A DNA stretch of 26,324 bases. Source: a virus. Location: positions 1-26,324 of the IMG/VR virus record IMGVR_UViG_3300025323_000025; one strand, 5' to 3'. Positions 1 to 24,428 of this stretch are shown in pieces. The notes beneath the pieces were generated by a model that was given only the letters and a program-made list of their open reading frames with translations, was not told the DNA's origin and did not search any database. Position numbers and translations under genes: made by a program. Within the stretch, counting starts at the first letter, position 1. Each line of letters opens with the position of its first letter.

Positions 1-176
1 AAGAACCGTTGGTTTCATCTGATATTGTGGGGAACAAGCACGCCTCGATTGCTGATCTGACGTTTACCAGAGTAGTCGGGGGTGATTTGGTGAAGGTTTT
101 AGCTTGGTATGACAACGAAATAGGGTACACATACACCCTCGTAAATCATGTCATTGCTGCAGGCAGATTAGTCTAG
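1..176 (+). CDS. gap: Glyceraldehyde-3-phosphate dehydrogenase, C-terminal end (partial)
   Basis: The reading frame begins at base 3 and gives 57 residues before TAG. It reads EPLVSSDIVGN at the start, with SWYDNE-type WYDNEIGYTYTLVNHV near the end. This is the conserved C-terminal catalytic-domain segment of type I GAPDH: the WYDNE(W/I)GYS motif followed by the last helix. The enzyme oxidises glyceraldehyde-3-phosphate to 1,3-bisphosphoglycerate in glycolysis. The rest of the gene lies outside the window. It is a chromosomal housekeeping gene and so marks the left host flank of the phage region. A hairpin terminator follows 35 bases after the stop. Confidence 0.95.
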   Translation, partial: EPLVSSDIVGNKHASIADLTFTRVVGGDLVKVLAWYDNEIGYTYTLVNHVIAAGRLV

Positions 177-211
177 CGACTAAGATTCACAACTTAATAA
201 TTTGATTTAAA

Positions 212-235
212 GACCTGGTAACACCGGGTCTTTTC
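212..235 (+). terminator. Rho-independent terminator of gap
   Basis: GACCTGG (212-218) pairs with CCGGGTC (224-230), seven pairs including one G-U, with a five-base loop. TTTTCT follows directly. It sits 35 bases after the gap stop and separates the host operon from the phage genes. Confidence 0.8.
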
Positions 236-307
236 TATATCCGGGAATCGTCTACAAAGGTCGAAAATTATTAACCAAAGAATCATTGTCCTGAAAAGGA
301 TCAGCCG

Positions 308-3179: not shown

Positions 3180-3563
3180 ATGACAATGACATCAGAACAA
3201 ACAAAAGTAATCAAAGATAAATATATTCAGGAACTCAATGAACAGATTTGGCGCAAGAAAATGAACATCGCCTTTGACCTCAGTAAAATCCTAGATATCG
3301 AAAAACTCCGTGACGACAGATTCAAGGAACTTGATGGTCTCAACGCCGATCTAAAACTCATTGATCCTTCTGACACTACAAAGCAGAGTCGAGTAAAGAG
3401 AAAGGATTTAGAAAAGAAAATAGCTCTAGCCGAAGACTTCACCTTGAAGTGTGATGAGACGATCGTTGTTATTAGAGACAATACAAATAAGGAAAATGAG
3501 AAGGTCGATCAATTACTCGCAAGAATTAAATTTGCCGAAGATTATGGAATCGACAAAAATTAA
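3180..3563 (+). CDS. Coiled-coil phage protein, unknown function
   Basis: The product has 127 residues and begins directly after the RusA stop (TAA then ATG). A second ATG two codons later is possible. It is highly charged, rich in Lys, Asp and Glu with regular Leu/Ile spacing, and is predicted as almost entirely alpha-helical with coiled-coil segments (about 5-35, 45-60 and 65-120). There are no membrane segments; one Cys is at about 89. It overlaps the next gene by 20 bases, so it is translated as part of the replication/methylation operon. I recognise no family; an adaptor or structural role is a guess. Confidence 0.7.
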   Translation: MTMTSEQTKVIKDKYIQELNEQIWRKKMNIAFDLSKILDIEKLRDDRFKELDGLNADLKLIDPSDTTKQSRVKRKDLEKKIALAEDFTLKCDETIVVIRDNTNKENEKVDQLLARIKFAEDYGIDKN

Positions 3564-4827
3564 AATCACTGAATTAAGACGTGCTGAGTATAACCCACGT
3601 ATCATGCCTGAAAATGAAATGTCAGCACTCAAGACAAGTATCAAGACCTTCGGCTTCGTCGAATCGGTCGTTGTGAATACTCACACCTGCGACCAGTGCG
3701 GTGACCGAAAATGGGTACTAGTAGGGGGTCATCAAAGAACTACCGCCGTAGAGGGGCTTGTAGCCCAAGGTGAAGCCATAAAAGGCATTGAAACCAAGGA
3801 CGGAGTAACTCTCATTCCAGCTAATCTAGTGGATTTACATCTTCCTGAAGAAAAGCTCCTCAATCTTGCCCTAAATAAAATCAAAGGAAAATGGGATGAG
3901 AAAAAACTCTTCGAAATTATTGTTGAGCTTAAGGAATCGCCATCCATTCCTGCTTCAGGTTTCAGGGATGATGAAATCAGTCGAATACTCGATCAGACTC
4001 TTGAGGATGAGGAAGAAGACGAGGGCGAAGGTGACGGGTCCGACAAGGAGCCTCGTTCAAAACTCGGCGAAATATATGAACTCGGGTCCCACAGATTAAT
4101 TTGTGGCGACTCAACAGATCCAGAAACCTATAAGAGACTTCTTGGTGATGAAAGGGCTGATATGGTTTTCACTGATCCTCCCTACAATGTGAATTACAAA
4201 AGCCGAGGAAATAAACTCAAAGAGGAAGGCAATGAATCTATCAAGAATGACAACATGGACGATAATCAATTCAGAGCATTCATTGACTCCGCCTTCTACG
4301 CAACATTCATTCACGTCAAAGAAGGTGCTTCGTTCTACATCTGTTCTGGTTGGAGCTCGTATCCGCAATTTCTTGAGAGTATGAATAAGAACGGCTTCCA
4401 GCATTCGGGTGTGATTATCTGGGTGAAGAACGTGCCGAGCATGGGATGGAATGATTACCGCTACAAACATGAGTGGATTGCTCGTGCGAAGAAACCAGAT
4501 CCTAAGACTGCACAGGGAATTATCTATGGTTGGAAAAATGGTACTCACAAATTCTATGGTGACAATGAGTTTGATGTATGGGAGATGCCGAGGAAAGCAG
4601 TTGCACACTACCTCCATCCGACCGAGAAACCTGATTGGCTTGCGATGAGAGCACTTCGCAATTCCACAAAGCGAAACGATATTGTTCTCGATCCCTTCGG
4701 AGGGTCCGGCAGCACCATGGCTGCGGCGGAAAAGGTCGGCCGACGGGCATACATGATCGAGCTTGATCCCAAGTTCTGCGATGTTATACGTAATCGATGG
4801 GAGAGAATTAATAAAATAAAACAATGA
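3544..4827 (+). CDS. ParB-like nuclease domain fused to N4/N6 DNA methyltransferase
   Basis: The product has 427 residues from ATG 3544; upstream in-frame Mets lie inside the previous gene. Residues 1-150 form a ParB/Srx-type domain: 'LRRAEYNPRIM', a CDQC CxxC insertion (49-52) and GGHQR (61-65). An acidic linker (154-168) follows. Residues 175-427 form a beta-class amino-methyltransferase with DPPY (211-214), HPTEKP (358-363) and FGGSGST (385-391, SAM-binding). The enzyme would methylate adenine-N6 or cytosine-N4 in DNA using SAM, probably to protect phage DNA from host restriction or to mark packaging sites. ParB-methylase fusions are common in phages. The stop overlaps the C5 methylase start (ATGA). 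The target site cannot be read from the sequence. Confidence 0.9.
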   Translation: MESTKIKITELRRAEYNPRIMPENEMSALKTSIKTFGFVESVVVNTHTCDQCGDRKWVLVGGHQRTTAVEGLVAQGEAIKGIETKDGVTLIPANLVDLHLPEEKLLNLALNKIKGKWDEKKLFEIIVELKESPSIPASGFRDDEISRILDQTLEDEEEDEGEGDGSDKEPRSKLGEIYELGSHRLICGDSTDPETYKRLLGDERADMVFTDPPYNVNYKSRGNKLKEEGNESIKNDNMDDNQFRAFIDSAFYATFIHVKEGASFYICSGWSSYPQFLESMNKNGFQHSGVIIWVKNVPSMGWNDYRYKHEWIARAKKPDPKTAQGIIYGWKNGTHKFYGDNEFDVWEMPRKAVAHYLHPTEKPDWLAMRALRNSTKRNDIVLDPFGGSGSTMAAAEKVGRRAYMIELDPKFCDVIRNRWERINKIKQ

Positions 4828-5951
4828 GATACTTCAGCCTCTTCTCGGGGATCGGAGGCTTCGAACTCGGCATACACAACGCATATGTGGAAACAGCTAA
4901 CAGAAAGAAGAACAGAGGAGGCAAAGCGACTCCGAAGACTCGGGGTGGTAAAGGATACAAGAAGTCTGAAAAAGCTGGTCCCGAGAGAGGACAATCTTGC
5001 AAACACCATCACTGCGACGGCTTACGACAAGAATCGATTGCTTGCGTGGGTTACTCCGAGATCGACAAGCACGCAATCGGAATTTATGAAAAATATTTCA
5101 AGCACACAAATTATGGAGACATCAGAAAAATCAAATCAAGAAATCTGCCAGATTTCGACTTACTCATTGGAGGTTTTCCTTGCCAATCTTTCTCTATTGC
5201 CGGCAAGAGAAAGGGCTTTGAAGACACTCGAGGGACACTGTTCTTTGAGATTACTCGCATTGTCGCTGCCAAAAGACCACGGCTTCTACTCCTTGAGAAT
5301 GTTAAGGGGCTTCTCTCTCACGAGAAGGGGCGTACCTTTGGTATTATCCTCCGCACACTGGATGGTCTTGGGTATGACCTCCAATGGCAGGTGCTTAACA
5401 GCAAGAATTTTGGAGTACCGCAGAACAGAGAGCGAGTCTTCATTGTCGGACATCTTAGAGGAACGCCCAGACCGGAAGTATTTCCTCTCGCCCAAAACGC
5501 AAGCGAGGATATTGTCCTACCAACCATCACGACACGTGTTACCGCAGACTCGAACGGAACTTATGTTAGTAAAAGATCGTCACATAAAGACCTGAAATAT
5601 ATCGGAGCTGTCATGAGCGAGAAGAACAAGAAATGGCTCGATGATGGAAAACAGCTCAGCAGAAACTTTCCACAAGGGAGTCGAATATATGATGCTAAAG
5701 GCATAGCTACTACCCTCGCAAGCCAAGCGGGAGGGCTTGGAGCGAAGACTGGACTATATGCAGTCAAAGGCTTACGGAAGATCCGTCGCCTTACCCCTAT
5801 GGAATGTGAACGTTTGCAGGGCTTTCCTGACGAATGGACGGAAGGTGTAAGCGACACTCAAAGGTATAAGTGCCTAGGGAATGCGGTGACCGTAAACGTG
5901 GTTCAGGCGATCATAAAAAAGCTAGTATTTGCAAGGGTTAAATCAAAATAG
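4824..5951 (+). CDS. dcm: DNA (cytosine-5-)-methyltransferase with anomalous insert
   Basis: The product has 375 residues. Motif I is FSLFSGIGGFELG (4-16), motif II VGYSEIDKHA (75-84), motif IV GGFPCQSFS with catalytic C120, motif VI ENV (158-160) and motif VIII 'NFGVPQNRERVFIVG'. The C-terminal 'LTPMECERLQGFP' and 'LGNAVTVNVV' are motifs IX/X. It transfers a methyl group from SAM to C5 of cytosine. Between motifs I and II there is a 51-residue Lys/Gly/Arg-rich stretch (22-72). In the +1 frame the same DNA reads as a more protein-like segment, suggesting two compensating frameshifts (see findings). The gene overlaps the preceding methylase by ATGA. Core catalytic motifs are intact, so activity is plausible. 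Confidence 0.92.
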   Translation: MRYFSLFSGIGGFELGIHNAYVETANRKKNRGGKATPKTRGGKGYKKSEKAGPERGQSCKHHHCDGLRQESIACVGYSEIDKHAIGIYEKYFKHTNYGDIRKIKSRNLPDFDLLIGGFPCQSFSIAGKRKGFEDTRGTLFFEITRIVAAKRPRLLLLENVKGLLSHEKGRTFGIILRTLDGLGYDLQWQVLNSKNFGVPQNRERVFIVGHLRGTPRPEVFPLAQNASEDIVLPTITTRVTADSNGTYVSKRSSHKDLKYIGAVMSEKNKKWLDDGKQLSRNFPQGSRIYDAKGIATTLASQAGGLGAKTGLYAVKGLRKIRRLTPMECERLQGFPDEWTEGVSDTQRYKCLGNAVTVNVVQAIIKKLVFARVKSK

Positions 5952-15358: not shown

Positions 15359-15370
15359 TAAAAATATATG
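15359..15370 (+). promoter_or_regulatory. Start-context 12-mer, copy 1 (tail tube gene)
   Basis: TAAAAATATATG ends with the ATG of the tail tube gene. The identical 12-mer occurs at three other late gene starts. It replaces a Shine-Dalgarno sequence. Confidence 0.55.
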
Positions 15371-16357
15371 TCAAAAGGAATAGGAAGATTAATACAGTTC
15401 GGGATTGCAAAGGAAACGGTACGTGGAACGCCAGAGTCGGCGGCTACCTATTGGATTCCGTTTTCAGAGTTAGATATCAATGAAAAGTTTTCGCTTGTAA
15501 ATGACGATCAATCCCGTGGAGTAATTGAGGACGCCGTCGGTCAGAGCAAGGTAAAGGAATGGGCTGAAGGATCGGTCAAAGCGCCGATTGCTGATAAGCA
15601 CTTTCCTCTCATTCTCTACTCGATTCTCGGCTCACTTTCTACAGGAGATAATGCTGACTCCGATGCAACCATCAAAGATCACACCATTACAGTTGCTCAA
15701 AGCTCACAACATCAGGCACTCTCGCTTTTCATCGATGACCCACTTGGAGCGCAGGACTACAAGCATGGAAACGGAGCGGTAACTTCACTTGAGATCTCAT
15801 ATGAGCTCAATAAGTTCCTTGATTACACTCTTGGACTCAAAGCAAAGAAAGGAGCGACAGCGACTTTGACTCCTGCATCTACGACTGAGAACAGATTCTT
15901 GCCTCAGCACCTCACATTCAAACTCGCTTCATCATATTCGGGTCTCGGTGCCGCTTCAGCCATGAGTATCAAGTCGCTCACTCTAAAGATTGACCAGAAT
16001 ATTGAAGACGATGACGTTCTTGGAAGCGCTACTCCTTCAGATTTCCTCAACAAGCAGTTTTCAATTGAGGGGACCTTTGAAGCTCTCTGGCAAAACGAAT
16101 CTGACTACAAAACTGCAGCTCTTGCCACGACTGCCAAGGCTATGAGACTCGATCTTAAGAACACCGATGTCACAATCGGCAGTGCTGCGAATCCCCAGAT
16201 CCGCATTGATCTTGCAAAAGTGATCTTCAAAGAGATTACTCGGCCCGTGAAGGTTAATGACCTGGTCCGTCAGACACTTTTATTCAAGGCTCACTACAGC
16301 ATCAGTGACACTTTGATGATTTCGGTATTAGCAACGAACGCAGTGGCATCATATTAA
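15368..16357 (+). CDS. Major tail tube protein
   Basis: The product has 329 residues. The start 'GRLIQFGIAKETVRGTPESA' followed by ATYWIPF is the usual opening of siphovirus tail tube proteins (a virion N-arm with a 'GIA.E...GT...A..W.P' pattern). The remainder is beta-rich, with two similar halves suggested by the repeated 'FEALWQNESDYK' and earlier domain pattern. It polymerises into the tube through which DNA passes. Position before the chaperone pair and tape measure supports this. It is somewhat longer than the lambda gpV core, which suggests an added domain. Confidence 0.8.
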   Translation: MSKGIGRLIQFGIAKETVRGTPESAATYWIPFSELDINEKFSLVNDDQSRGVIEDAVGQSKVKEWAEGSVKAPIADKHFPLILYSILGSLSTGDNADSDATIKDHTITVAQSSQHQALSLFIDDPLGAQDYKHGNGAVTSLEISYELNKFLDYTLGLKAKKGATATLTPASTTENRFLPQHLTFKLASSYSGLGAASAMSIKSLTLKIDQNIEDDDVLGSATPSDFLNKQFSIEGTFEALWQNESDYKTAALATTAKAMRLDLKNTDVTIGSAANPQIRIDLAKVIFKEITRPVKVNDLVRQTLLFKAHYSISDTLMISVLATNAVASY

Positions 16358-16374
16358 TCAAAATAATTAACCAT

Positions 16375-16716
16375 ATGGAAAGAGAAACAATAAAACTCAC
16401 AACGCCTCTCGGTAAAGAACTTGTTATCAAGTCTTTTATGAACGCCAAGGAAAGGAATGCCATTAAAAGCGCCTTCCTCGAGGGCATTAAGATTGATCCG
16501 AATGATATCGGGAGTGAAGATCACATGATGAAGGATGTCGATGCTTCAATCATGCTCAAGGCGGAAAAAAGAACCTTTGAACAGCTGATTGTCTCGTATG
16601 CCGGTAGTTCGGAGAATATCTCTGACAGGCTCGAGCAAGCTACACCTGCGGAATACGACTTCGTAGTTGCGGAATTAAATAAAGTCACAAAGGGAAATTT
16701 TCAGTCGGCGAAGTAG
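16375..16716 (+). CDS. Tail assembly chaperone, short form (gpG-like)
   Basis: The product has 113 residues ending at TAG 16714-16716. It lies between the tail tube and tape measure genes, where lambda G is found. N-terminal strands (IKLTTPLGKELVIKSFMNAK) lead into helices. The C-terminal 'AEYDFVVAELNKVT' is typical of chaperones that bind the tape measure. A fraction of ribosomes should shift to -1 at 16695-16701 and make a longer protein (see the next entry). The short form is usually in excess in siphoviruses. Confidence 0.8.
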   Translation: MERETIKLTTPLGKELVIKSFMNAKERNAIKSAFLEGIKIDPNDIGSEDHMMKDVDASIMLKAEKRTFEQLIVSYAGSSENISDRLEQATPAEYDFVVAELNKVTKGNFQSAK

Positions 16717-16904
16717 GGTATGCATGGGAGAGGTACTTCGCAGGGGTGAAAGCCTCTCTCACTGATGAAATGGTAGCAGCGATGATTTGTAGGGAAATGA
16801 AGTGGACGTTAGAGGAATACGAGAGCCAACCCACGACCTTCATAGACACGGTAATCGAAATGCTTAAAGCGGAAAGTGCGGAAATAAAGAAAAAGAATAA
16901 ATAA
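16375..16904 (+). CDS. Tail assembly chaperone, frameshifted long form (gpGT-like)
   Basis: After 109 codons in the zero frame, a -1 shift at A AAT TTT (16695-16701) continues through a second open frame to TAA 16902-16904, giving 176 residues. The added 67 residues start SVGEVGYAWERYFAGVKA and carry helices with MICREMKWTLEEYESQP and a Lys-rich end. That part has no suitable start codon of its own near the shift. The 'M.A.MICREMKW...E' pattern is like the T domain that binds the tail tube. The tape measure gene starts two bases after its stop. This corresponds to lambda gpG-gpGT. Confidence 0.85.
16695..16758 (+). promoter_or_regulatory. Programmed -1 frameshift signal: slippery heptamer plus pseudoknot
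   Basis: The heptamer A AAT TTT (16695-16701) fits X XXY YYZ in the zero frame. After a six-base spacer, stem 1 pairs GCGAAGTA (16708-16715) with TACTTCGC (16734-16741). Its loop contains GAGAGG (16728-16733), which pairs with CCTCTC (16753-16758). The two stems abut at 16733/16734, as in an H-type pseudoknot. Confidence 0.85.
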
Positions 16905-16906
16905 TT

Positions 16907-18262
16907 ATGGCAGAGTCAATAAGTAAACTACAAATATTGGTTCAACTTCGGGATGAGGCAAGTACTGCAATCCGGAGTATGAGTAATAGCCTCTCCGACC
17001 TCGGTGGGCAATTTGGTTTTGCAGGTGACAAGGTCGGTGCCTTGGCAGGTGTGCTTCAAACCATTGGTGCAGGGGCAATATTAAAAAGTGCTATCACTGC
17101 CTTTGCTGAAGCTGAAGTACAGATGACTCGTTTTGATGCAATTCTTAAAACTCTTCCTCCTAACCTCCAAGCTCTACGAGGCCAGATACTTGCGGTTGCT
17201 GATGATGCATTGAATAAATTCGGATTTGATAATGAAGAAGCGGCTGTCTCGATTGCTAAACTTCTTCAGGCAACTAATGACGGTCCCTTTGCGTTCCAGG
17301 CATTTTCTGCAGCCATGGATCTTGCTAGATATAAAGGCATAGGACTCGAGGAGTCGACACAAGCATTGATCCTGGCTTTTCAAGGTAATGCTCGACTCCT
17401 GAAACAATTCGGCATCGAAGTCGATGATCATGCTTCCAAGGAAACAATACTTGCAGCAATTATGCGAACTGTAGATGGTCAAGCTGCAGCATATTCGGAA
17501 ACCTTGAAGGGTCAGCTTGATATCACAAGGCAACTTGGTGGTGAAGGTGCTGAAGCATTGGGAAGTCTCTTTGCACCGGCCATAGAAATGGTTACCAAAG
17601 GAATCCAAAATTGGATTCTAGCACAAGGAGGCATCAATGCGTTTCTGGAGAATAACAGAAATCTACTCATTGCCGTGGGAAGTCTTCTTGTTGCCCTTTT
17701 TGCAGCGGGATTAATTGTTGCTACTGCAGCAGGACTCGCACTTCTAGGTCCCTTGGGTCTTATCATTGCCGCAATCGCAGCTATAGGTGCAGTCATCATC
17801 TTTTTCTACACTCTATGGAAAACGCAGTGGGAAAACATTAAGGAAATATTTTTCGCCGTGTGGAACGGCATCAAGGATTTCTTTACTGCGATATGGAATG
17901 GAATTGTTGACCTCTTTAATGCGGGAATAGAGAGGATAAAGAGTGCAATTGCCTCGATTCAAAGTGCCTACAACTCCGTAGTCTCGGCGGTGTCAGCTCC
18001 TATTAAGGGAGCGGTGAGTGCCGTAAAGAGCGTTGTATCAAAGTTTGCCGACGGTGGCATCGTTACTGGCCCCACTCTCGGGCTTGTAGGTGAAGCCGGT
18101 CCCGAAGCCATCATCCCCTTAAGCAAGCTTGGTCAAGTTGGAGGTTTGACTATCAATCTCAATGGGGACTTTTATACCACTACAGAAGTAGCTGAAGAAT
18201 TCGGCAATGAACTTGCTCGCATTATTAAAAACCAGATCAACCTGGGAGGTATAAGAGCATAA
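16907..18262 (+). CDS. Tape measure protein
   Basis: The product has 451 residues, short for the family. If about 1.5 angstrom per residue holds, the tail would be roughly 65-70 nm. The first 60 residues are a helical oligomer start (LQILVQLRDEASTAIRSMS). Residues about 60-235 resemble the phage tail tape measure core with 'GIGLEESTQALILAFQGNAR'. Residues about 245-300 are strongly hydrophobic (LLIAVGSLLVALFAAGLIVA and following), probably the part inserted into the host membrane. Near the C-terminus 'FADGGIVTGPTLGLVGEAGP' with EAIIPL is the classic tape measure motif. It sets tail length and helps inject DNA. Confidence 0.92.
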   Translation: MAESISKLQILVQLRDEASTAIRSMSNSLSDLGGQFGFAGDKVGALAGVLQTIGAGAILKSAITAFAEAEVQMTRFDAILKTLPPNLQALRGQILAVADDALNKFGFDNEEAAVSIAKLLQATNDGPFAFQAFSAAMDLARYKGIGLEESTQALILAFQGNARLLKQFGIEVDDHASKETILAAIMRTVDGQAAAYSETLKGQLDITRQLGGEGAEALGSLFAPAIEMVTKGIQNWILAQGGINAFLENNRNLLIAVGSLLVALFAAGLIVATAAGLALLGPLGLIIAAIAAIGAVIIFFYTLWKTQWENIKEIFFAVWNGIKDFFTAIWNGIVDLFNAGIERIKSAIASIQSAYNSVVSAVSAPIKGAVSAVKSVVSKFADGGIVTGPTLGLVGEAGPEAIIPLSKLGQVGGLTINLNGDFYTTTEVAEEFGNELARIIKNQINLGGIRA

Positions 18263-20179: not shown

Positions 20180-21301
20180 ATGTCAATTACCGCCGGACAA
20201 ACAGCACTCGCATCAGATTTCATTGCCTCAACAGCAGGTTCTGGTGATGCGGGAAAAGTGCCTAAATTAAACTCGAACGGTACGCTCGATGGTTCTTTTA
20301 TCAATGACTCATTCGGTGGTACTGGTGACGGATCGGATGGCAACGTAACCATTTCTTCCCCGACAACTCTCACTCGAGATATGTTTTATAACGATCTTAC
20401 CGTTAACGACACTCTCACTACTGGAGGATTTATGATTCGAGTCAAAGGAACTCTCTCCGGAAACGGCGCAATTAAATATCCTGATGGAAACAATGGTAGC
20501 AATGGTGGGAATGGATCAAGTGGTGGCGGTGCTGTAGCTGGGGGTGGTGGAGGAGGCGGAGGTGCGGCACTTTCAACCGGAAGATTTACAAATACTGCTG
20601 GACAAAATGGAGCAGGTGGAGGTAATGGTGCTCCAAATTCAGGAGGTGATGGTAGTACCGGAACCTCCTCGACGAAATCAGTGGGAGTAAACGGAGTAGC
20701 GGGTGGAGCGGGTGGCCATGGGTCTTCATACAGCAACGGAAATGCTGCTGCAGGAGGTAACGGATCAAGCGGTGGAACTGCATCGAAGGTAATTACACCA
20801 GGTCGAATACTTTCTCTTCTCGTTCTTGGGGTCGATCATCTTCTGAATGGTTCAACCTCCTCATATGACGGGTCCGCAGGATCAGGATCGGGTGGTGGAG
20901 GCGGAGGAGGTAACTCATCGGGTGGAAATAACGGAGGAGGTGGAGGCGGTGGTGGTGCAGGAGCTTCTGGTGGTCTCGTATTTATTGTCGCAAAGATATG
21001 GGCGGGAACCTTCACGATCAGAGCCGTCGGTGGAAACGGTGGCAATGGAGGAACGGGTGGTACAGGATCGGCAGGTGGGCAGGGATCTGCCGGAGGCGGA
21101 GGTGGCGGAGGCGGTGGTGGTTCAGGCGGAGCCTCAATCGTTGTCTACAGCACAAAGACGTGGAGTGGAAGCTATGTTCTCACCGGTGGGTCGGCCGGAA
21201 GTGCGGGTAGTAGTGGTGGATCAGGTTCAGCAAACGGTAGTGCGGGAACTTCAGGGTCGACGGGCACAAGCTACGAAGTTCAATCGAATGTTTTATATTA
21301 A
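20180..21301 (+). CDS. Glycine-rich tail adhesin-like protein
   Basis: The product has 373 residues. Residues 1-40 (ITAGQTALASDFIASTAGSG and DAGKVPKLNSNG) form a module shared with the next two genes and probably attach the protein to the tail. A short beta segment (55-100) follows. Residues about 104-360 are dominated by Gly, with Ser/Asn/Ala and repeated GG(N/S)G(G/S) units, interrupted by hydrophobic strands near 210-225 and 260-275. Such sequence suggests polyglycine-II packing, as in receptor-binding adhesins of some T-even phages. A host-surface-binding role is likely but not proven. The strong GGN codon bias creates long false frames on both strands. Confidence 0.75.
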   Translation: MSITAGQTALASDFIASTAGSGDAGKVPKLNSNGTLDGSFINDSFGGTGDGSDGNVTISSPTTLTRDMFYNDLTVNDTLTTGGFMIRVKGTLSGNGAIKYPDGNNGSNGGNGSSGGGAVAGGGGGGGGAALSTGRFTNTAGQNGAGGGNGAPNSGGDGSTGTSSTKSVGVNGVAGGAGGHGSSYSNGNAAAGGNGSSGGTASKVITPGRILSLLVLGVDHLLNGSTSSYDGSAGSGSGGGGGGGNSSGGNNGGGGGGGGAGASGGLVFIVAKIWAGTFTIRAVGGNGGNGGTGGTGSAGGQGSAGGGGGGGGGGSGGASIVVYSTKTWSGSYVLTGGSAGSAGSSGGSGSANGSAGTSGSTGTSYEVQSNVLY

Positions 21302-21307
21302 AAAATT

Positions 21308-22129
21308 ATGTCGATCACACAAGGACAAACAGCATTAGCATCGGACTTCGTGGCATCATCTGCCGGAAGTGGAGATGCAGGAAAAGTACCGAAGCTCGAT
21401 GCAAACGGTTTGCTTGATAATAGTTTTCTAGGACTTACAGGAATTATCGTCCCGACCATGAGGCGATTAATTCCTCCAGGTTGGCTTTTATGTGATGGAC
21501 AGGCAGTTTCAAGAGCGACATACGCAATGCTTTTTGATGTGCTCTGTCCATTTGCAGTATTCACGGTAACGATTGCATCACCTGCGGTCTTTACTACAAC
21601 AGCTCATGGTCTGGTTGCGGGAGACAAGATACGAATTACGACAACAGGTTCATTACCTACAGGTCTTGCAACTGGCACAGACTATTATGTTATTTCAGCG
21701 GGTCTAAGTGCAAACGATTTCAGAGTTTCTACAAGTCGAGGAGGTAGTGCAGTCAATACATCTGGATCACAATCAGGTGTTCACACTTGGAGAGTCTTTA
21801 ACTCTGGTGTGGGTGATGGGTCGACGACATTTAACCTTCCGAATTTGAAAGGGAAGTCGGTGTTCGGTTACGACGTGACGGATGCAAACTTCGATACGAT
21901 CGATACCCCGAATACTTATGTAGGAGAAAAGACTCATCAACTTACGGAAGTAGAATTGGCGGCACACATTCATACATTTGGAAATGGTTCAGAGGGTGGT
22001 TCCTCAAAACCAACAAATTCTCGTGGTGGAGGAGATACTGCTCCGATGTCTACGTATTCTACTGGTGGGGATGCAGCCCACAACAATATGCCTCCCTACA
22101 AGATAGTTAATTTTATGATTCGAATTTAA
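21308..22129 (+). CDS. Tail collar domain protein with inserted beta domain (copy 1)
   Basis: The product has 273 residues. Residues 1-40 repeat the ITQGQTALASDF attachment module. A phage tail collar domain starts at about 45 (MRRLIPPGWLLCDGQAVSRA), with the 'P.GWL.CDG' motif. It is interrupted at about 82-162 by a beta domain (TAHGLVAGDKIRITTTGSLP and FRVSTSRGG) and resumes at 'GVGDGSTTFNLPNLKG' (167-182). It ends with H.H (IHTF) and NMPPYKIVNFMI, the usual collar end, where His residues hold metal in trimers. Tail collar proteins form the fibre base or tip. It is paralogous to the next gene. Confidence 0.88.
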   Translation: MSITQGQTALASDFVASSAGSGDAGKVPKLDANGLLDNSFLGLTGIIVPTMRRLIPPGWLLCDGQAVSRATYAMLFDVLCPFAVFTVTIASPAVFTTTAHGLVAGDKIRITTTGSLPTGLATGTDYYVISAGLSANDFRVSTSRGGSAVNTSGSQSGVHTWRVFNSGVGDGSTTFNLPNLKGKSVFGYDVTDANFDTIDTPNTYVGEKTHQLTEVELAAHIHTFGNGSEGGSSKPTNSRGGGDTAPMSTYSTGGDAAHNNMPPYKIVNFMIRI

Positions 22130-22136
22130 ATATTTT

Positions 22137-22901
22137 ATGTCAATTCAATCTGGACAAACTGCGTTGGCCTCAGACATGAACAGAATCATGCCTCTTGCTG
22201 TGATCGTCCCTTTTGTGGGGAAAGTAATTCCCTCTGATTTTCTGGTCTGTGATGGGTCCCTCATTTCCCGCACAACCTACGCCGCTTTATTTGCAATACT
22301 TTGCCCTAGTTCAGTTGTCACGATTACTATCGCATCACCAGCTGTAATTTCTTGGACAGCTCACGGATTGGTAGCCGGTGACAAAGTCCACTTCACAACA
22401 ACTGGTGCGTTGCCAACAGGTCTCGCAGTAAATACTGATTATTTTGTAATCGCTACTGGTCTTGCCACTGACTCCTTCAGAGTCTCAACCTCTCGTGGTG
22501 GTGGAGCTGTAAATACTTCGGGAACTCAAAGTGGTGTTCATACTGCTTACAATAGTAACTTCGGAAAAGGTGACGGATCAACGACATTCGCTCTCCCTGA
22601 TTTTCGAGGATTCACTCCCTATGGTTACAAATCTTCAGATGCCAACTTTGATGCGCTCAATGTTCCAAATACATACGCAGGTGAAACGGCTCATGTTCTT
22701 CTTTCGGGTGAACTTCCATCACATTCTCACAGTATCGCCATGTCCTCCTCTGGATCGGGTTCGACAACGAATGCGATGAGGTCGTCCGGAGGGCAGGACG
22801 CTACGCAAACAAGCGGATCGTCGGGAAGTAATACGGCGCATAATAACTTACCGCCATACATAGTCGTGAACTTTATCATCAAAGCCGTAGTCTATGCATA
22901 A
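22137..22901 (+). CDS. Tail collar domain protein with inserted beta domain (copy 2)
   Basis: The product has 254 residues. A shorter form of the shared start (MSIQSGQTALASDM) leads straight into the collar domain (PFVGKVIPSDFLVCDGSLIS). The same beta domain is inserted at about 62-137 (TAHGLVAGDKVHFTTTGALP, then RVSTSRGGGAVNTSG). The collar resumes at 'GKGDGSTTFALPDFRG' and ends with HSHS, a Ser/Gly-rich loop and NNLPPYIVVNFII. It clearly arose by duplication with the previous gene. Differences concentrate in the N-terminal spacer and the His/Ser-rich tip loop, which may change specificity. Confidence 0.88.
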   Translation: MSIQSGQTALASDMNRIMPLAVIVPFVGKVIPSDFLVCDGSLISRTTYAALFAILCPSSVVTITIASPAVISWTAHGLVAGDKVHFTTTGALPTGLAVNTDYFVIATGLATDSFRVSTSRGGGAVNTSGTQSGVHTAYNSNFGKGDGSTTFALPDFRGFTPYGYKSSDANFDALNVPNTYAGETAHVLLSGELPSHSHSIAMSSSGSGSTTNAMRSSGGQDATQTSGSSGSNTAHNNLPPYIVVNFIIKAVVYA

Positions 22902-24095: not shown

Positions 24096-24428
24096 TTATT
24101 TCTTCTCTTCAAATTTCAATATCTCTCGTAGGTATTCGAAATCAAGTAATTTATCTCCTGCAAATTGCTTAATCTCTCGGGCAGTCCGTGGAGATCTTGA
24201 AAGAACCATGATTTCCTTTTTGTTTTCTTTCAAATGCTTAAGTACTGGTAAAAAGTCTCCATCGCCAGATAGAAAAATTGCACGGTCATAGGCATTTTTG
24301 TCACGCATCATATAAAAAGCCATATCGACATCACAGTTCGCTTTTTGTTCTGTATCGATGCTCCAACCGAGGGATTTCTTTCCTCCATAGAATAGATTTG
24401 AGGCATCAATGTAGGCATTTGTACGCAT
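24096..24428 (-). CDS. NYN-domain (LabA/DUF88-like) protein, internally shortened
   Basis: The product has 110 residues. The N-terminus TNAYIDASNLFYGGKKSLGW carries the first catalytic Asp region of NYN/PIN nucleases. 'KANCDVDMAFYMM' and FLSGDGDFLPVLKHLKE hold the other acidic residues, followed by VLSRSPRTAREIKQFAGDKL. In related LabA-like proteins, 50 or more residues (strand, helices and a 'YYTG' segment) lie between the first and second part; here SIDTEQ joins KANCDVD directly. The family has RNase-type folds with Mg-binding Asp residues. All acids are kept, yet the missing core may abolish function. It is convergent with the phage operon and probably chromosomal. Confidence 0.75.
   Translation of the reverse strand: MRTNAYIDASNLFYGGKKSLGWSIDTEQKANCDVDMAFYMMRDKNAYDRAIFLSGDGDFLPVLKHLKENKKEIMVLSRSPRTAREIKQFAGDKLLDFEYLREILKFEEKK

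Follow-up and report, generated by a model that had tools for sequence, protein, structure and literature searches.

A predicted lambda G/GT-type -1 frameshift in the tail assembly chaperone genes of a Patescibacteria phage family, with a conserved stem-loop and a probable pseudoknot in one clade

The tail assembly chaperone genes of the virus analysed here are very probably expressed through a programmed -1 ribosomal frameshift of the lambda G/GT type, which would be stimulated by a stem-loop (stem 1) conserved across a family of Patescibacteria phages and, in the clade of this virus, probably by a pseudoknot. The window (the whole stretch of DNA that was analysed, 26,324 nucleotides) was compared with relatives taken from 78 viral loci found by tail-tube searches and from 7 genomes in a sample of 384 from the same class, and 69 distinct cassettes were extracted in which the T domain is in the -1 frame relative to the G frame.

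The G and T frames

The gene pair and its two neighbours were delimited as follows.

15368 to 16357, plus strand: tail tube protein gene, upstream neighbour of G (Pfam Phage_tube_2, E 1.2e-19)
16375 to 16716, plus strand: G frame, putative 113-amino-acid tail assembly chaperone, the 0-frame product (open reading frame, location between the tube and tape measure genes, AlphaFold model)
16701 to 16904, plus strand: T frame (-1), 67 codons and the stop TAA at 16902-16904, C-terminal half of the predicted G-T fusion (substitution bias, conserved domain, PHROG 9001)
16907 to 18262, plus strand: tape measure protein gene, downstream neighbour of G/T (PHROG 1272, tail length tape measure protein, E 1.5e-20)

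The position of the gene pair was tested by its neighbours, and G/T was found between the Phage_tube_2 gene upstream and the tape measure PHROG match downstream. The G frame ends at the TAG at 16714-16716 and gives a product of 12.7 kDa, while a -1 shift would give a G-T fusion of 176 amino acids and 19.9 kDa. An earlier note on this DNA had claimed that the -1 frame remains open for 67 codons, ends two bases before the tape measure start and yields a fusion of 176 residues, and all of this could be read directly, with the tape measure ATG at 16907 two bases past the T stop.

Downstream of the G stop, substitutions at the first, second and third codon positions of the -1 frame numbered 3, 1 and 17 in comparison with the relative L007, and 11, 8 and 27 in comparison with L005. 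Furthermore, the T frame is open in the relatives, its domain aligns well among the members, and 13 of 32 T relatives matched PHROG 9001, tail assembly chaperone (best E 2e-5). As judged from these comparisons, T is coded in the -1 frame and is under selection at the protein level. Only the T relatives gave such matches; searches of Pfam and PHROGs with the window's own G and T found no direct family match. A sequence search of the PDB and a fold search with G also found no match, and no annotated phage was matched in protein searches that used the tube, the tape measure and a relative of T as queries. The AlphaFold model of G, built from 29 sequences, had a pLDDT of 79, and its best matches in a viral library, with modest scores, were phage proteins that are uncharacterised or, in several cases, named as tail assembly chaperones; the model of T had a pLDDT of 87 and is all helical.

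Alternatively, T might be a separate gene with a start of its own, either the GTG at 16746 or the ATG at 16770, and be expressed without any frameshift. The T-frame GTG does have a purine-rich stretch upstream. However, it is not kept in the relatives (it is CTC in L002 and TTA in L004), it comes after the conserved GEV..W.RYF motif of T, and a separate T would leave the heptamers and stem 1 unexplained, so that we regard this alternative as very improbable. As no start within T is conserved, standard gene calling will overlook the T half of the predicted fusion or cut it short.

The slippery heptamer

16695 to 16701, plus strand: slippery heptamer A AAT TTT, in the 0 frame
16702 to 16707, plus strand: six-nucleotide spacer CAGTCG, read from the sequence

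The 0-frame codons at the junction are AAG GGA AAT TTT CAG TCG GCG AAG TAG, and A AAT TTT is therefore in the correct phase, so that direct reading of the codons bears out the heptamer and six-base spacer claimed in the earlier note. Two further in-frame heptamer-like strings overlap it, A AAG GGA at 16689 and G GGA AAT at 16692; these are not kept in all of the close relatives, and L004 has neither. When the codons of G were shuffled, an in-frame XXXYYYZ string (Y = A/T) occurred within the last 10 codons in 3% of the trials, and the density of in-frame XXXYYYZ strings in 12 other genes of the window was 0.23% per codon. The occurrence of A AAT TTT in the window alone is only mildly unlikely by chance. 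Among the relatives, a full in-frame XXXYYYZ heptamer was found in 57 of the 69 gene pairs, mostly at the same place, and the signal is therefore not due to chance. Heptamers were scored by their position relative to the T domain, the 0-frame stop being elsewhere in L029, L036, L038, L049, L059 and others; the position is uncertain in L039, L041, L094 and L095 because their T match is partial.

The full heptamers in these 57 gene pairs were AAATTTT (21), AAACCCT (10), TTTTTTA (7), AAATTTA (4), AAAAAAA (4), GGGTTTT (3) and others; the kinds represented include AAATTTN, GGGTTTW, CCCTTTC, TTTTTTA, AAAAAAA and AAACCCT. Ten of the remaining 12 gene pairs have a partial heptamer, in which the Y YYZ slip tetramer is present but the half before it is imperfect (G GAT TTT in 7, G TCT TTW in 2 and C AAT TTT in 1). 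The encoded amino acids vary with the heptamer, and it is therefore the slipperiness that is kept. The earlier note had held that relatives that keep the tail genes but lack the heptamer and pseudoknot, or have the second frame disrupted, would speak against the signal; in the relatives the type of heptamer is kept and the second frame is intact.

Three groups of relatives have unusual junctions. The G GAT TTT subgroup (L047, L048, L051, L053, L055, L056 and L073) is non-canonical in that perfect re-pairing is available only in the second half, and stem arms resembling GGCGAAGA and TCTTCGCC are found downstream in several of its members. Ten relatives (L049, L059, L061, L068, L077, L079, L081, L082, L083 and L085) have A AAC CCT at the junction, with Y = C, which is outside the usual Y = A/U consensus. 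In the A AAT TTT TAG subgroup (L040, L042, L043, L045, L072, L078 and L086), the G stop directly abuts the heptamer, and a strong stem begins 2-5 nt past the heptamer, so that the stop lies between the slip site and the stem.

The fusion could also be produced by slippage during transcription instead of by ribosomes, and nine-A runs are indeed present at the site in a few relatives (L006, L062 and L069). In the window and most relatives, however, no run at the site is longer than 4, and slippage by ribosomes accords with the XXXYYYZ phase and with a covarying stem that follows after a short spacer. We consider transcriptional slippage the least probable of the explanations discussed here.

The conserved stem-loop

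16708 to 16715, plus strand: stem 1, 5' arm GCGAAGTA (returned by RNAalifold unprompted; covariation)
16734 to 16741, plus strand: stem 1, 3' arm TACTTCGC (RNAalifold; covariation; synonymous-codon null)

Stem 1 was claimed as a helix of 8 bp, and it consists of 8 perfect pairs enclosing an 18-nt loop and starting 6 nt past the heptamer, within the distance of about 5-9 nt looked for in a pseudoknot-stimulated -1 shift. The 5' arm ends within the G stop codon, of which it includes the first two bases, and thus the same bases serve as the end of G, as part of T and as part of the stem. When 21 relatives, aligned without gaps, were submitted to RNAalifold with no structure given, exactly 16708-16715/16734-16741 was returned, and 97% of the cells were paired, compared with 35-57% in slid controls. 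The compensatory changes that the earlier note proposed to look for were found for stem 1, with 13 double-changed cells and three pairs altered on both sides, and the covariation score was reached by none of 500 shuffles; for stem 2 (described below), there was no covariation among the window's few close relatives. The double changes in stem 1 were from G-C to C-G, from C-G to A-U or G-C, and from G-C to A-U.

Because both arms of stem 1 are coding, synonymous recoding of the T codons was used as the null. In 49 non-redundant cassettes, stem 1 had a mean of -15.4 kcal/mol of stacking versus -11.9 for the null (Wilcoxon p 2e-8, Fisher p ~2e-9; kinship is ignored, which inflates the significance of both). 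It might be argued that stem 1 is a by-product of the conserved amino acids GEV and RYFA and is not an RNA element, given that both arms are coding and that stem 1 of the window alone is not stronger than its synonymous recodings (p 0.65), that is, it is not unusual for its protein. Against this, stem 1 exceeds the synonymous recodings across the 49 relatives, and the pair 19-42 changes from G-C to A-U in 7 sequences with a 3' change, TAC to TAT, that is silent. The outer pairs also change, from G-C to C-G and from C-G to A-U or G-C, and we give the by-product explanation very little credence.

Many relatives (L011, L012, L021, L030, L046, L096 and others) lengthen stem 1 inward to 10-13 bp, and these lengthened stems fold at about -15 to -28 kcal/mol. 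The comparative evidence indicates that the stimulator conserved across the family is this stem-loop.

A candidate pseudoknot in the window clade

16725 to 16733, plus strand: stem 2, 5' arm, lengthened from 16728-16733
16753 to 16761, plus strand: stem 2, 3' arm, lengthened from 16753-16758

The earlier note had described a second stem of 6 bp abutting stem 1. Its six perfect pairs, GAGAGG at 16728-16733 with CCTCTC at 16753-16758, are exactly as described and abut stem 1, but the helix reaches further, growing outward to 9 bp (16725-16733/16753-16761) with one G.U at 16727/16759. With stem 1 held fixed, the best abutting stem 2 was compared with those of synonymous recodings, and stem 2 exceeded them in the window (p 0.010), in L002 (p 0.003) and in L004 (p 0.007). 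In L005, a shifted stem 2 helix was found (p 0.033), and the stem 2 arms of L007 are the same as those of the window. The energies of the stems were computed separately, one stem at a time; the 9-bp stem 2 of the window alone gave -12.0 kcal/mol and stem 1 as a hairpin alone gave -10.1 kcal/mol, and nested folding of the window favours the stem-2 hairpin over stem 1.

An Arg CGC codon contributes to the extension of stem 1 in several relatives. The AGG found at this codon in the window clade is unable to prolong stem 1 and instead belongs to stem 2. These sequences suggest that, in the window clade, stem 2 probably turns a short stem 1 into an H-type pseudoknot, and the most economical reading, drawn from few close sequences, would be that a longer hairpin gave way to the pseudoknot here.

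The idea that the whole family shares a pseudoknot was also tested and was rejected, since stem 2 was not above chance in 43 cassettes of the wider family (combined p 0.20) and only 58% of its cells were paired versus 97% for stem 1. Of the complete cassette with a pseudoknot that the earlier note described, the heptamer, the T frame and stem 1 are thus upheld by the relatives, whereas stem 2 is upheld only in the closest ones.

It is a serious possibility, though one that we rather doubt, that frameshifting is real but that the stem 1 hairpin alone is the stimulator, stem 2 being a coincidence of the codons of the clade. The same counts from the wider family, where stem 2 is missing or no better than chance, speak for this explanation, as do the single long hairpin in many relatives and the fact that simple stem loops suffice elsewhere, for example in E. 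coli dnaX (PMC5009743). On the other hand, the excess of stem 2 over synonymous recodings in the window and its two relatives (p 0.003-0.010) speaks against coincidence, and stem 1 is unusually short there, while stem 2 adds 9 bp that abut it exactly.

Returning to the exchange of a hairpin for a pseudoknot, we tentatively propose, with slightly less than even confidence, that the stimulator changed form within this one family of Patescibacteria phages. A hairpin of 10-13 bp, in which an Arg CGC codon that pairs back over the stop codon often forms the closing pairs, would have become shorter in the window clade (Arg AGG) and given way to an H-type pseudoknot. Meanwhile the slip site would have shifted between many heptamers, among them A AAC CCU, the non-canonical G GAU UUU and the stop-abutting A AAU UUU UAG. 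If this is true, the family offers a natural series in which hairpins and pseudoknots, together with different slip codons, were exchanged at one conserved frameshift.

Proposed mechanism and relation to known systems

In the mechanism that we propose, translation of G would in most cases run through to the TAG at 16714 and yield the 113-residue chaperone. In a minority of cases, the RNA structure that begins 6 nt past A AAU UUU would hold the ribosome while its AAU and UUU codons are decoded; the ribosome would then slip backward by one base, pair anew with AAA UUU and go on translating in the T frame, resulting in the 176-residue G-T fusion. Stem 1 would act as the stimulator throughout the family, and stem 2 probably strengthens the short stem 1 of the window clade (8 bp with an 18-nt loop). 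If the roles are as in lambda, G may bind the tape measure protein and T may recruit tail tube subunits.

The tail chaperone gene pair and its frameshift mechanism have long been known, and in lambda a low-frequency -1 shift links G, which binds the tape measure, and T, which binds the tail tube protein (PMC5009743). Lambda G/GT and its conserved counterparts in long-tailed phages were described by Levin 1993 and by Xu, Hendrix and Duda 2004, as these are cited in PMC5009743 and PMC3711429, and one phage collection contains 2,397 annotated tail chaperone cases (PMC10885494). The comparison with lambda G/GT made in the earlier note was right: the window shares with it the location between tube and tape measure, the -1 direction, the overlapping G and T frames, the C-terminal T extension and an XXXYYYZ slip site. 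It differs from lambda in that its sequence is unrelated at the level of the searches made, its slip site is A AAU UUU, its family has a conserved, covarying downstream stem-loop, likely part of a pseudoknot in the clade, and its host would be a Patescibacterium. For an HK97-like tail chaperone cluster a -1 shift was likewise predicted, and two reporter-tested members shifted at 6-7% (PMC3711429); for the predicted shift in the window, this measured value is a reasonable expectation by analogy. The signals of E. coli dnaX and of bacterial IS elements likewise have a slippery heptamer followed at a short distance by a stem-loop or pseudoknot (PMC5009743), but they are in different genes, and the A-site codon in the window is Phe UUU and not Lys AAG.

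In the paper collection searched for frameshifting in Patescibacteria phages, no paper on the subject was found, as judged by titles and the beginnings of abstracts. What the present analysis contributes is a well-supported set of cassettes in these phages, a stimulator for which covariation argues, and a probable exchange of a hairpin for a pseudoknot. The tail-chaperone frameshift is thereby extended to phages of Patescibacteria with strong comparative evidence, and the family is a ready test bed, with about 50 natural cassettes in which different heptamers and either a hairpin or a possible pseudoknot stand in the same place.

The virus and its host

The genes annotated on the 26.3-kb virus record follow one another much as in a siphovirus: terminase, portal, protease, capsid, connector, tail tube, G/T, tape measure, tail tip and collar genes, and amidase. 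Its nearest genome match was Candidatus Taylorbacteria CAIOGI010000009.1, with 97% identity in the tail tube. The C-terminal end of a GAPDH (Gp_dh_C) is encoded at the left end of the window (3-287), and in CAIOGI010000009.1 the matching left end of a prophage adjoins a matching GAPDH-end sequence, with ~360 extra bases between. Because a Taylorbacteria genome has the matching prophage left end by the GAPDH-end sequence, the virus is taken to be a prophage, and its host is very likely a Taylorbacteria-like Patescibacterium, an ultra-small bacterium. No exact repeat of at least 12 nt was found between the first 400 bases and the last 2.8 kb of the window.

Several other genes of the window were also observed. 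Two adjacent DNA methyltransferase genes are located at 3451-5951, the first for an N6/N4 methylase whose N-terminal part has a weak ParB-like match and the second for a C5-cytosine methylase. A very glycine-rich protein (20180-21301) is followed by two tail collar-domain proteins (21308-22129 and 22137-22901), and at the right end a small NYN-domain protein is encoded at 24096-24428 on the minus strand, opposed to the direction of the phage genes.
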